DNA from: Muricea muricata
Taxonomy: Eukaryota > Cnidaria > Anthozoa > Malacalcyonacea > Plexauridae
Reading direction: 5' to 3'
Length of the DNA stretch: 64,000 bases
NCBI GenBank assembly: GCA_963855995.1
Contig: OY979716.1
Span: 47,015,213-47,079,212 of the forward strand
Part shown: in pieces, positions 36,831-64,000 of the stretch
Position numbering within the stretch: position 1 is the stretch's first letter
How the letters are laid out: each line of letters opens with the position of its first letter
Program-made: the position numbers and the translations under genes
The notes under the pieces: model-generated
The model's input: only the letters and a program-made list of their open reading frames with translations
Told to the model about the DNA's origin: nothing
Database searches by the model: none

Positions 36831-37145
36831 CTGTTCGACTTGTTGACGGCCCTGATAATGCAACTGGACGAGTAGAGGTCTACTATAACGGCACATGGGG
36901 AACAGTTTGTGATGATGACTGGGACATTAACGATGCTCTTGTTGTCTGCAGACAACTGGGTTTTCCTTATGCATTAGATGCTTATCGGCGTGCACATTAT
37001 GGCCAGGGAACTGGGGCGATTTTATTAGACGATATAGATTGTTTGGGTAATGAGTCAGCACTACTTTCGTGCAGTCATAGAGGAGTAGGAAATCACGACT
37101 GTACTCACTCTGAAGACGCCGGGGTTCGATGTGGAAACACTAGAG
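36831..37145 (+). CDS. SRCR domain exon, cassette 1
   Basis: 315 nt between a ..tttttag acceptor and a GTACGA donor, phase 1 on both sides, 105 residues. It starts [20 protein letters not shown] and continues [24 protein letters not shown].., then [14 protein letters not shown] and [12 protein letters not shown]. It has six cysteines in the group A SRCR arrangement, and N-glycosylation sequons (NAT, NGT, NES) fit an extracellular protein. Known for the family: extracellular ligand or pathogen binding and protein interaction; the ligand here is unknown. Next exon on the strand is the LDLa at 51398, separated by a 13.5-kb transposon cluster that the other two cassettes lack. Confidence 0.92.
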
Positions 37146-37680
37146 GTACGATTAATTGATGAAGGATTAATTAATATCATTATACAACCAGTCGTCATAT
37201 TTGGTTGACAATTGTAATAGATTCAACCAAGTATGGAAGTCTTTTTTCTTGACAACAATAATCCGCACTGATCACTGCAACAACCACAGAACACGATCAC
37301 AGTTAAGTTGATACAGCGTATTAATGATGAATAAGAGCATTTACTTAGAAATTAATCGCAGCGAACAAAATGTTTGTAGGCTACGCAAAGACGGTAATGA
37401 TTGTAACAACCGTCTATCAATCAGCTCCTCAATAAATGTACTGGGACCAAGTATCATCCGTAAACATTTCGGAAACGCTCTCATTTCATTAGTGACTCAT
37501 GATTTTATTTTTCCTTTACTATCAGCAAGGATCTTTCCGCAAGGAGGTTTATAATTAATATGCAAGTCATTGACTAGCAAGGATACTATCACTAGAGGCA
37601 AGGATACTATCAGCAAGGAAGTTTATAATTAATATGCAAGTCATAGACATATAATATATCGCAAAAGTCGCAGCACAACA

Positions 37681-38041
37681 TGGCGAAATTTAGCGAACGC
37701 TTGTGGGAAACCGCTTTTTTGGTCGTCAAACGGCAATTTGGGATGGCGAGCTTGCTTACCGATCCGGGCAAGGCATCAAGGCGTTCTTCGAAACTGCGTT
37801 TCGCATTCTTGTTAATTTGCCAACTGGTTCTAGCAAATCTTTGATATATCAAAGTCTGCCGATTGTGGCTGGTATTCTTCATGAACGACGTCTTTGTTCG
37901 AGCATAATTTTAGTCATCTCACCTCTTCATGCCCTCATGAAAGATCAAGTTTCCTTCGACATCATTATTTTCCTGCCACAGCTGTTGTTGACAAGTGAAG
38001 AAGTGGACGCCATTGACGAAGCACACTGTACAGTTCAGTGG
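37681..38041 (+). pseudogene. RecQ-like DEAH helicase fragment
   Basis: ATG at 37681 starts MAKFSERLWETAFLVVKRQF. After one frameshift (about 37740-37780) the frame of 37703 reads FRILVNLPTGSSKSLIYQSL (Walker A with Gly to Ser: GSSKS for GSGKS), ILVISPLHALMKDQV (motif Ia), then jumps to EEVDAIDEAHCTVQW (DEAH box, partly deleted before it). Superfamily 2 RecQ helicases unwind DNA; this copy has only the first third, an internal deletion and a frameshift, so it is not functional. It probably rode in with a mobile element, as RecQ-like fragments commonly do; that is an inference. Confidence 0.65.
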
Positions 38042-39329
38042 TGAGTGCACACATTAAGTTTTATAGCTTTTAACATTAGATATCAAGTCCATGTATAATG
38101 TATGACCATTCTTTTCCCGGATATAAGAATACAAGGCCTTTTTTTAAAATGAATACCTGAAACAGAATGGCTTTAGTAAATGTTTTACCTCTCAAAACAA
38201 TCAGAACGTAGACATCATGGAGAGATTTGTATTTCTTTCCTCAGGCCTACCCACCTCCTCCCACCCCTGAACTACAGTAGCATATAGGGACTGGCCAACT
38301 TAAGCCCATTCATAATAGACTTTTAGCGTAAATGAATACATAGCTAACTACATTGACCAGAGTTTTTTAATTTAATTTTTACAAGATGTTTACCTGGTCG
38401 AGGTTAAGGCCATTTCGACAATGGTGTGGTTGCTTGGGAGAAGTGGCATCATTAAAACCAATGAATCAAAGTTACTTGTTCCTGCAACAGATACAAAAGC
38501 AAACCAGATCCAGATTTTCGAAAGACTTAGCATGAAATCATCACAAATGTAGAAGATTGAACAGAGGCGGATCTAGAATTTTTCACACATCAGTCGAACG
38601 CCGAAGGCGTGAGCCATGCTAGGAGGGGTCCGGGGGCATGCACCCTCCCCCCCCCCCCCGGCAAAATTTTGAAATCTAGACTCTCTCGTAGAAGGAATCA
38701 TTTTCTAAAGAAATGAATGATGATAATGATATAAATTTGCATAGCATGACCAAATTGTCGGGCTGATGGAGTAACTCCACACATGGAGTAACTACAGTAT
38801 TCTGTGACGGATGTTTTAAATCTTCTGTTTTAGCCATTTGCTTGGATGCTTCAGGGAAGCATTAAAATCGTCTTGATGGAGTGTTTATTGACATAGACGC
38901 ATTCAGGTATGCAGTGGCTTTATAGCTCATTTATAATTACCAGTTGTATAGCCGAGCACAGTTTATACTACAATATGGCATGTATTTGATTAATGCGCCT
39001 TATGGCGGTATTCTAACGAACTATTCATTCAACATAGTATCCTAGACATTTATTTGGTTTGTTTCCATTACCTTTATACCCTTATCCTCACAACCATTTA
39101 CCTTGCGACTCCAGCTTGGAATTTGACCAGTTTGTATGCTTTTCGTAATTTAATATGATTTGCCCTCATGGGCTGTTATGTGTTTTCTTATTGATTCTCT
39201 TATGGGTTTGTAGAATTTGCCTTATGGCACTGGAATGTTGGAATTCGCCTTATGGCACCGTGTACGTCAATTAGCACGGAGTCATGGGTTTTTTGCTAAG
39301 ACTTGTATGTGCCAAGTTTTGTGCAAATA
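38042..39329. other. No gene recognised
   Basis: A gaggcggatctag.. start followed by ggggtccggggg and a C-run at 38563-38660 resembles a degraded hAT-type terminus. A ttatggc-containing stretch at 39180-39260 is repetitive. No ORF of interest. Confidence 0.4.
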
Positions 39330-61811: not shown

Positions 61812-62117
61812 CTGTTCGACTTCTTGACGGCCCTGACAATGCAACTGGACGAGTGGAGGTCTACTATAACGGCGCATGGGGAAGAGTTTGTGATGATAGC
61901 TGGGACATGTACGATGCAAGTGTTGTCTGCAGACAATTTGGTTTTCGTTTTGCCCTAGAGGCTAATCGGCGTGCACGTTACGGCCAAGGAACTGGGCCCA
62001 TTTTTTTAGCTAATGTACACTGTCGGGGTGATGAGTCAGCACTAATATCATGCAGTTATAGAGAAGTGACATATCAAAGTTGTGAAGACGCTGGCGTTCG
62101 ATGTGGAAACATTGGAA
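61812..62117 (+). CDS. SRCR domain exon, cassette 3
   Basis: 306 nt, acceptor ..acaattttag, donor GTACGA, phase 1-1, 102 residues: [40 protein letters not shown], then as in cassette 2 with six cysteines and [10 protein letters not shown]. It has the WG pair usual for SRCR where cassette 2 has WR, so cassette 2 carries the change. It splices in phase to the LDLa at 62844. Confidence 0.92.
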
Positions 62118-62843
62118 GTACGATTAATTGAACAAGGATTAATATATATCATTACACAAACAGAAGTCATGTTTTGTTTACAATTTTTTCTAACTGCAAA
62201 AATCACGAAAAACTTTCACCTGTCAGTTGATGCGTATCAATGATGAATTAAAGCATTTGCTTAGGAATTAATCGCAGCGCACAAAATGAATGTTACATTT
62301 CACATACAACAAATCATCCCAAATTTCTATCTCGACCACATTCATTTTCCATTTATTCAATAGTAAATTTATAAAACTGCTTTGACAAGGATTTATGTCA
62401 TTTAGATTAGAGTGAATCAGATTCAAAATTGATTCAGCTCGTTAATTTCGGTCTACATGTTTAGTATACTTCAGGCACAAGTAGACAACGTCAACATATT
62501 GAATAATACTGTCTGCACTGGACCACAACGTTTAAATATCGTGTTTAGGTAGTGCATGCAAAAATTACGACGGCTTATTGTACAATAGCAGTGTACTTCT
62601 GTACATTGGACCACATCGTTTGAGATACCGTTCACGCACTTCAGACAGAAAATACAACATCTAACTATAGAATACTACCGTACTTACCATACAACAATGT
62701 TTGAGATATCTGTTTCAAATAGTTCATATACAAACCATGGCACTGCGTAATGAAGAGTGCTGTCAACACTAGACCACCACGGAACTGCGGAAAATTGCGT
62801 TAGAATATTCATTTACTTGACGCAATGCTGTCTTTTCTTACAG
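62118..62843 (+). other. Cassette 3 intron
   Basis: Close copy of 56024-56751; no exon seen. Confidence 0.6.
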
Positions 62844-62969
62844 CGCCAACAAGTTGTGGTTATTCGAAGTTTCCATGTCATGATGGTCGATGTATTAATC
62901 GTGGCTATGTATGTGATGGTAAAAATAGTTGTTATGATGGTAGTGACGAAGATTATTGTAACTCAACAG
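62844..62969 (+). CDS. LDL-receptor class A exon, cassette 3
   Basis: 126 nt, acceptor ..tcttacag, donor GTTGGT, phase 1-1, 42 residues, first codon completes to Ala (Val in cassettes 1 and 2). [20 protein letters not shown] and [10 protein letters not shown] are intact. The intron after it diverges from cassette 2 at about 62995-63040 through a short deletion. The gene is expected to continue past the window edge. Confidence 0.9.
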
Positions 62970-64000
62970 GTTGGTTGTTTAACAACTGTTTGCGTTCAAG
63001 CACAAACTGCAAGCATTGCAAGCGTGACGTTTGCGCTTGAAACACGGACCGTTAGCGGTTTAAAATGTACGATCGCCGACAAGGGCCATTCACGTCTGCT
63101 GCATGGAAAGACAGCTGTGCTGCAAGAATATGCGACTGTGCTACAAAGAAATACGGCTGTGCTGCATGGTTACACGACTGTGCTGCATAGAAATGCTTCT
63201 GTGGTGCAGAGAAATGCATCCGTGCTGCGTAAACTGTTACGTCCGTGAAAATGATACAGAGACACAAAACTTTTCAGTAGAATGTCATCTGTCAGTAAAT
63301 GACCTTCTACATGTAAACATCAACGTTTCTCTGAGAATTACGCGTCTTAGCTCTAAACCTGCTTGTTCTAAACGAACAAGTAAACATTGTTTTGTATACT
63401 GTAAATTCCCCCCCCCCCCCTTATTCAATTACTTCTATCTAGAATACGAGGTGAAATAGTTTTATGTCACCACGAGGTCATCGTCGTAAGGTGTGTTTTT
63501 GTGCGAATTATTACGAAGAAAGAGTTTGATTATTGTGTGAACGTAGGAACAAAGTGAGTCCAAAATACACAGAGAAATCGTGCGTCTATTGTGGACAACA
63601 TTTCCTGGAAAATACAAAATGGATTATTACATTTAATGTCCGTAACCCCGGCCTCAAGGACCTCTATATAAATTATATCACTGTTTCGACGCGTTTTGAA
63701 ATGTTACAATATTAATCTCGACATTCCTAAGAAAAGTTCTTTTGCCTCATCCGGGAATAAATGATGCTCATCGCCCGAAATAAATTTCCTCTATATAGGG
63801 TCTGCCAGGGGTTTTTAGGTATACGGTATATTGCAGTTTTTAAAATCAGGTATATGGTATACTTCAGTTATTCTCGGGTATTAATTAGTACTTTTTGGAT
63901 TTTCATAAACTAAAACGCCAACATAAAAGAAAACCTAGAAGTATGCATTGCACTTCTAGAAGTCATAGATATTTTAAAGAAACTCGCTATGATCCTCATC
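62970..64000 (+). other. Cassette 3 intron, to window edge
   Basis: Aligns with 51524-52560 and 56878-58490. Contains the 21-bp minisatellite (63090-63236) and a C-run (63407-63420). No further exon before the edge. Confidence 0.55.

Follow-up and report, generated by a model that had tools for sequence, protein, structure and literature searches.

What kind of locus occupies the right-hand part of this 64,000-nucleotide stretch of Muricea muricata DNA (the window; C1:47015213-47079212 of a genome of 453 Mb)? A sequence-only reading had described three rightward copies of a cassette composed of an SRCR exon and an LDLa exon, all phase 1 at both ends. The sequence of the window and of its relatives in the genome shows that the window takes in the left end of a long array in which SRCR and LDLa exons alternate, and which recombines while being kept readable. 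We consider it probable that this array is an invertebrate DMBT1-like scavenger or agglutinin locus, supplying the repeats of a single large extracellular gene or of several neighbors.

The six exons of the window, all on the plus strand and all phase 1 at both ends, were identified as follows. SRCR1 (36831-37145, 315 bases; E = 7.8e-34), SRCR2 (55718-56023, 306 bases, with a three-residue deletion; E = 1.4e-27), and SRCR3 (61812-62117, 306 bases; E = 3.6e-28) match PF00530 above the curated cut-off in a Pfam search of open frames (36806-37156, 55693-56034, and 61787-62128, respectively). LDLa1 (51398-51523; E = 2.5e-11), LDLa2 (56752-56877; E = 2e-11), and LDLa3 (62844-62969; E = 1.5e-11), each 126 bases in length, match PF00057 above its cut-off in frames 51358-51597, 56691-56951, and 62804-63037. 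SRCR1-3 each have the six cysteines of a group A SRCR domain, and the LDLa modules have six cysteines and the SDE motif. Each exon is bounded by an AG acceptor and a GT donor and is divisible by three in length, and the six exons, when joined, are readable without a stop. These observations bear out the three exon copies of the sequence-only reading, as well as its single-residue difference between cassettes 2 and 3: SRCR2 and SRCR3 are identical at 100 of 101 residues, and SRCR1 and SRCR2 at 70 of 101. Vertebrate group A SRCR domains are encoded by two exons, unlike the SRCR domains of the array, each of which is contained within one.

The array extends well past these three copies. In the stretch C1:46985213-47219212 and a further 10 kb to its right (46.985-47.229 Mb), we found 15 intact full-length SRCR exons and 17 intact full-length LDLa exons on the plus strand, spread over ~165 kb (47.052-47.217 Mb). 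The array thus continues to the right of the window, which cuts its left end; the next SRCR exon (unit 4) starts ~2 kb after LDLa3. The acceptor and phase-1 donor are present in all 15 SRCR exons. All 17 LDLa exons have the phase-1 donor. The position of the acceptor is shared by 13 of them, whereas in the remaining four the AG is slightly further upstream, with the phase unchanged (hand count). SRCR and LDLa exons alternate in order, with two exceptions in which successive LDLa exons have a relic SRCR between them. On the left is an inverted group of four SRCR exons on the minus strand (46.994-47.011 Mb), one of which lacks an AG at the expected position, as does the sole full-length LDLa exon of this group. 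The two groups are therefore arranged head-to-head, and the earlier description of the locus as triplicated is an effect of where the window ends.

A search of the genome with SRCR3 yielded at least 150 matches (150 of 239 candidates scored). The seven best, at 94-100% identity, are all located at the array, and the next has at most 83% identity among the matches listed. These seven family members group together (97/90) in a protein tree of 27 SRCR domains, in which much of the rest is unresolved and the bootstrap not settled. The inverted group includes an SRCR that shares 89% of residues with SRCR1, which is thus nearer to it than to either SRCR2 or SRCR3. There are also nine partial SRCR fragments on the plus strand of the array, five of them with stops; two adjacent ones may be a single relic. 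Four of the nine stop 71-72 bases before an intact SRCR exon (36657 to 110056 on the scale of the window, on to C1:47125268). The one in the window (36657-36761, plus strand) consists of a 3' part only, has 79% DNA identity to SRCR1 (E = 5.6e-21), and is separated by 71 bases from the point where the full codons of SRCR1 begin. This recurrent spacing hints at an ancestral SRCR-SRCR-LDLa unit, as on C12, where each LDLa exon of a cluster at 11.21-11.37 Mb precedes a single SRCR exon or several. The SRCR exon ends of that cluster have AG and GT sites as in the array (10 kb of the cluster read).

We compared eight consecutive units of the array (units 1-8, of which units 1-3 are within the window) and found that the recent amplification comprises seven tandem units, from LDLa1-SRCR2 to LDLa7-SRCR8. 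The LDLa block of unit 1 belongs to the recent family (35 differences to unit 2 in 884 bases), as does the SRCR block of unit 8 (39 differences to unit 3 in 873 bases), whereas the SRCR block of unit 1 falls outside it (157 of 796). The amplified unit is therefore LDLa-spacer-SRCR, and not the SRCR-to-LDLa cassette proposed earlier. Its left edge is located in the SRCR1-LDLa1 intron at 51151-51206 (maximum chi-square, 0 of 1000 permutations), where the windowed identity of unit 1 to units 2-7 climbs from ~0.82 to ~0.95. The right edge is at or near LDLa8; in the vicinity of the LDLa exon, identity of unit 8 to units 2-7 drops from ~0.95 to ~0.87, and no homology extends past window-equivalent position 94531. 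The ~3.2-kb unit length of the sequence-only reading is real, although the insertion-free SRCR-to-SRCR spacings (3152, 3173, and 3182 bp) all include units from outside the window. The longer spacings are 6094, 7535, 14404, and 18887 bp, and the two long ones inside the window are accounted for by insertions. The notion that cassette 1 is clearly older holds for its SRCR exon but not for its LDLa exon, as LDLa1 and LDLa2 differ at 2 of 126 bases and LDLa2 and LDLa3 at 4 of 126. Symmetric phases do make the gain or loss of a unit frame-neutral, and the array has indeed changed in length, as evident from the seven recent tandem units and the relic exons.

The SRCR block of unit 2 (55661-56536, plus strand) is nearly identical to that of unit 3 (61755-62630), with 3 substitutions in 876 bases. 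Divergence is significantly greater on both sides of the block, with 60 of 849 bases differing downstream (Fisher p = 9e-16) and 6 of 214 upstream (p = 0.003). Identity of 99.7% over 876 bp could be taken as a sign that the assembly duplicated one cassette into cassettes 2 and 3 through uncollapsed haplotypes, a possibility that had been raised along with the cassettes themselves. We reject this explanation as highly improbable, since divergence is 7% in the 849 bp that follow and ~3% in stretches further out, the two units carry different insertions, and five more copies of the family (94-99% protein identity) occur to the right on the same contig.

Instead, the SRCR and LDLa blocks appear to have been exchanged among units. 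Change points for units 1 and 2, 1 and 3, and 2 and 3 were unmatched in 1000 permutations and are located no more than 55 bases apart, in the intron. Distances between SRCR blocks were not correlated with those between LDLa blocks. For SRCRk and LDLak in units 2-7, the Mantel r was -0.18 (543 of 720 permutations as high), and for LDLak and SRCRk+1 it was 0.03 over seven units (2097 of 5040) and -0.24 over six (579 of 720), although tests on six or seven units have little power to detect a weak correlation. The blocks have therefore recombined separately, and simple duplication of whole cassettes, in either phase, is disfavored by these uncorrelated distances. The odd one out in a triple of units switched between blocks in 11 of 20 triples, with 8 being significant after Bonferroni correction.

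A breakpoint unmatched in 300 shuffles was found in 40 of the 56 triples of units 1-8. The best breakpoint for 17 of these 40 falls within a single 75-column alignment bin in the SRCR-LDLa intron (56544-56603), while the bin at the edge of the LDLa exon has 8, the interior of the SRCR exon 5, and other places the last ten. This distribution suggests a recurrent recombination seam in the SRCR-LDLa intron, short of a proven hotspot because the triples counted overlap and are not independent. A 23-base repeat has three occurrences around 56544-56603. For gene conversion, which the sequence-only reading had put forward along with positive selection, the signal is thus positive (the SRCR2/SRCR3 tract, uncorrelated blocks, and switching triples), and unequal exchange and gene conversion act on ~1 kb stretches of the array. 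A more ambitious interpretation is that the locus is a germline diversification system serving a protein of extracellular recognition, in which the intron seam would swap SRCR exons between units and leave LDLa undisturbed, such that alleles would vary in the number and type of SRCR domains and hence in binding. We regard this as rather unlikely; if true, alleles would differ in the ligands they bind, whether microbes, symbionts, or self.

The exons of the array are under purifying selection. The ratio of nonsynonymous to synonymous differences per site (pN/pS) is 0.05 for the LDLa exons of units 1-7, in which there are four variable sites in 123 bases and only one alters a residue. For SRCR exons, the pooled pN/pS is 0.42 (seven family members), 0.41 (15 on the plus strand), or 0.45 (all 19). 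The corresponding rate ratio, dN/dS, exceeded 1 in none of 170 SRCR exon pairs (one of 171 having been excluded for dS ≤0.02), and the suggestion of positive selection is not upheld, although pairwise averages may miss a few selected sites. Among units 1-8, the SRCR exon has a single gap, of nine bases, and the LDLa exon has none. In two adjoining intron stretches, 9 of 12 and 14 of 16 gaps (23 of 28) are not multiples of three, with the second count being inflated by unit 8, which is unrelated past window-equivalent position 94531. Purifying selection on these exons constitutes coding constraint and speaks against decay. The SRCR exon differs between units 1 and 2 at 54 of 306 bases, nearly as much as the introns do (93 of 466), and constraint on SRCR is therefore moderate. 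It is very improbable that the array is mostly a non-functional repeat in which some exons have merely not yet decayed. The dense transposons and the nine SRCR fragments, five with stops, are in keeping with such decay, but all 15 SRCR and 17 LDLa full-length plus-strand exons are open and have splice sites, and a simulated SRCR exon remained stop-free in 43% of trials after 20 random changes and in 30% after 30. The low pN/pS of LDLa is likewise contrary to decay.

As all joints are in phase 1, units could be gained, lost, or converted without a break in frame, and changes in valency would be tolerated. With several SRCR domains per chain, the cation faces of these domains might together confer avidity for polyanionic or microbial ligands, with LDLa modules serving as conserved spacers or as further Ca-binding modules. 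Secretion, the recognition of microbes or self, and differences in copy number between alleles or species, which had also been proposed in the sequence-only reading, are possibilities suggested by the domain families and the precedent of DMBT1.

A different gene structure is a substantial possibility, even if not the one we favor. The locus could be a cluster of several shorter SRCR-LDLa genes in tandem, each joining a few cassettes, in which case constraint and recombination would be as described above. Large gaps and transposon blocks split the array, an inverted group is present on its left, and a cluster of 16 neighboring SRCR genes has been reported in sea urchin (PMC10855680, in the portion available). 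However, no other exon type was recognized between cassettes, where only SRCR and LDLa were searched for systematically and ~67 open reading frames to the right were inspected by eye, and the alternating order is broken only at the two places with a relic SRCR.

Besides the limits noted above for the Mantel tests, the intron seam, and the intron gap counts, several observations weigh against the array being the readable repeats of a single large gene or of several neighbors. First and last exons, a signal peptide, and a membrane anchor were not found, in the absence of a systematic search for these, and the gaps of up to ~36 kb between neighboring exons also fit several genes or unused stretches. 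The donors of SRCR2 and SRCR3 are weaker than those of the other four exons (89th versus 98th percentile of GTs in the window, as scored with a consensus matrix). Lastly, LDLa1-3 have a serine just before the fifth cysteine, at the canonical place of an acidic Ca ligand. Ca binding by LDLa1-3 may be weak because this serine replaces the acidic ligand. Across the LDLa modules of the array, the residue at this place is Ser, Asn, Asp, or Lys. The window also has a lone LDLa exon at 4342-4524 (minus strand; E = 1.9e-10), which is only 39% identical to the LDLa of the array and has the canonical acidic Ca-ligand pattern.

The cation sites of DMBT1 were mapped onto the SRCR domains of the array through the VCDD, LDD, and EDAG motifs. 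The DMBT1 sequence used matched the solved DMBT1 chains over 101 residues (~223 bits). In SRCR8 of DMBT1, one cation is coordinated by D1019, D1020, and E1086 (site 2) and another by D1020, D1058, D1059, and N1081 (site 3), and the substitution D1019A or D1020A abolishes binding; CD6 uses the same SRCR face without calcium (PMC7043408, in the portion available). SRCR1 has Asp or Glu at all eight mapped places, including D, D, and E at site 2 and D, D, D, and D at site 3 (Asp for N1081). In all seven amplified SRCRs, D1019, D1020, and E1086 of site 2 are retained, but the final three places of site 3 are occupied by Ala, Asn, and Ser, and three residues are missing before E1086. Three of the four residues of site 3, a ligand-binding cation site in DMBT1, are thus lost in the amplified type. 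Comparable losses occur in some CD163 domains, as judged from alignments. The amplified SRCR type, with part of one cation site gone, probably has an altered ligand.

The locus belongs to a known kind. DMBT1 (salivary agglutinin, gp340, SALSA) similarly has tandem SRCR units split by a second short module (PMC4851238, PMC9038570). According to the portions of these papers available, human DMBT1 molecules have 7-20 SRCR domains, with one copy-number region changing at 0.7-2.7% per generation (PMC4851238), and a strain of Streptococcus mutans was not bound by a short allele (PMC9038570). The repeats of DMBT1 lie in one gene and vary in number between alleles, whereas the array is known here from one assembly. 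Unlike in DMBT1, the partner of SRCR in the array is LDLa rather than a SID segment, and a single exon encodes the six-cysteine SRCR. CUB and ZP exons were not recognized (no systematic search was made for these), and the amplified SRCRs have lost residues of cation site 3. Tandem expansion of SRCR has been reported in sponge and sea urchin (PMC10855680). As in the array, six-cysteine group A domains and SRCR domains in single exons are reported for sea urchin, and LDL-A is among the commonest partner domains, but the portion of that report available describes neither a regular alternation of SRCR with LDLa nor blocks exchanged separately, and the phrase 'gene conversion' has no occurrences in its text. 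SRCR diversity has also been documented in cnidarians, a placozoan, and a ctenophore (PMC5119243, PMC6321704, PMC11797021, in the portions available). No description of an alternating SRCR-LDLa array was found in the open-licence literature, as judged by titles and the beginnings of abstracts. Among solved structures, CD163 chains are the best match, with nine stretches matching SRCR3. CD163 is, however, a group B receptor with eight cysteines, and its SRCR domains are not known to alternate with LDLa. The specific features of the locus are its regular SRCR-LDLa alternation and the separate histories of its blocks. It shows in detail, for an animal that is not a vertebrate, the pattern known from DMBT1, in which phase-symmetric exons for binding domains are gained and converted and yet still readable. 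With a map of its block boundaries, family members, and informative sites, variation of invertebrate SRCR arrays in length and content between individuals is directly testable.

A number of insertions separate the exons in the window. The SRCR1-LDLa1 intron has ~13.5 kb without a match in other units (37378-50877), with homology to unit 2 stopping at 37372 and resuming at 50878. This stretch contains a helicase-like piece, a DDE_Tnp_4 piece, and a long terminal repeat-type element, as detected by Pfam in separate open reading frames. The last of these, a retroelement at 43992-48942, has 112-bp direct repeats (95.5% alike) and separate reverse transcriptase, RNaseH, and integrase frames. The LDLa-SRCR spacer that follows has a DNA-transposon-like stretch (52040-53460) with ~110-bp inverted repeats (52040-52147 and 53345-53460, 80%), the arms of which recur in units 2 and 3. 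Also between LDLa1 and SRCR2 is a 2.2-kb insertion with ~600-bp inverted arms (53493-55660), for which the empty site is found before SRCR3 (61755/61756). Among units 1-3, unit 2 has an insertion at 57457-57998 with a palindrome, seen as an inverted repeat, in its left part. Between LDLa2 and SRCR3 is a plus-strand insertion of the long interspersed nuclear element type (59185-61541), with PF00078 on two separate open reading frames, which is absent from the spacer of unit 1.

Smaller repeats are present as well. Imperfect 21-bp tandem repeats (TGTGCTGC-like) occur after each LDLa exon (51689-51802, 57025-57156, and 63097-63217). A weakly palindromic element of ~203 bp is found three times at ~94-96% identity (7931-8133, 29366-29568, and 54353-54556), the third copy being within the 2.2-kb insertion before SRCR2. 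The segments 12534-12723 and 20608-20780, which are 8 kb apart, are inverted copies of one tandem repeat with a 31-bp period (99-100% matches). The window had no matches in Rfam and tRNA scans, nor did LDLa2 when compared with phage records. Elsewhere on the contig, at C1:38415367-38416086 (minus strand), there is a copy of mitochondrial COX1 that is 80% identical to the probe and adjoined by COX2; the best COX1 match is on a small contig, C74. The COX2 beside COX1 suggests a non-bilaterian animal, in that it reads sensibly with genetic code 4, in which AGA is Arg and AAA is Lys, and has no TGA.

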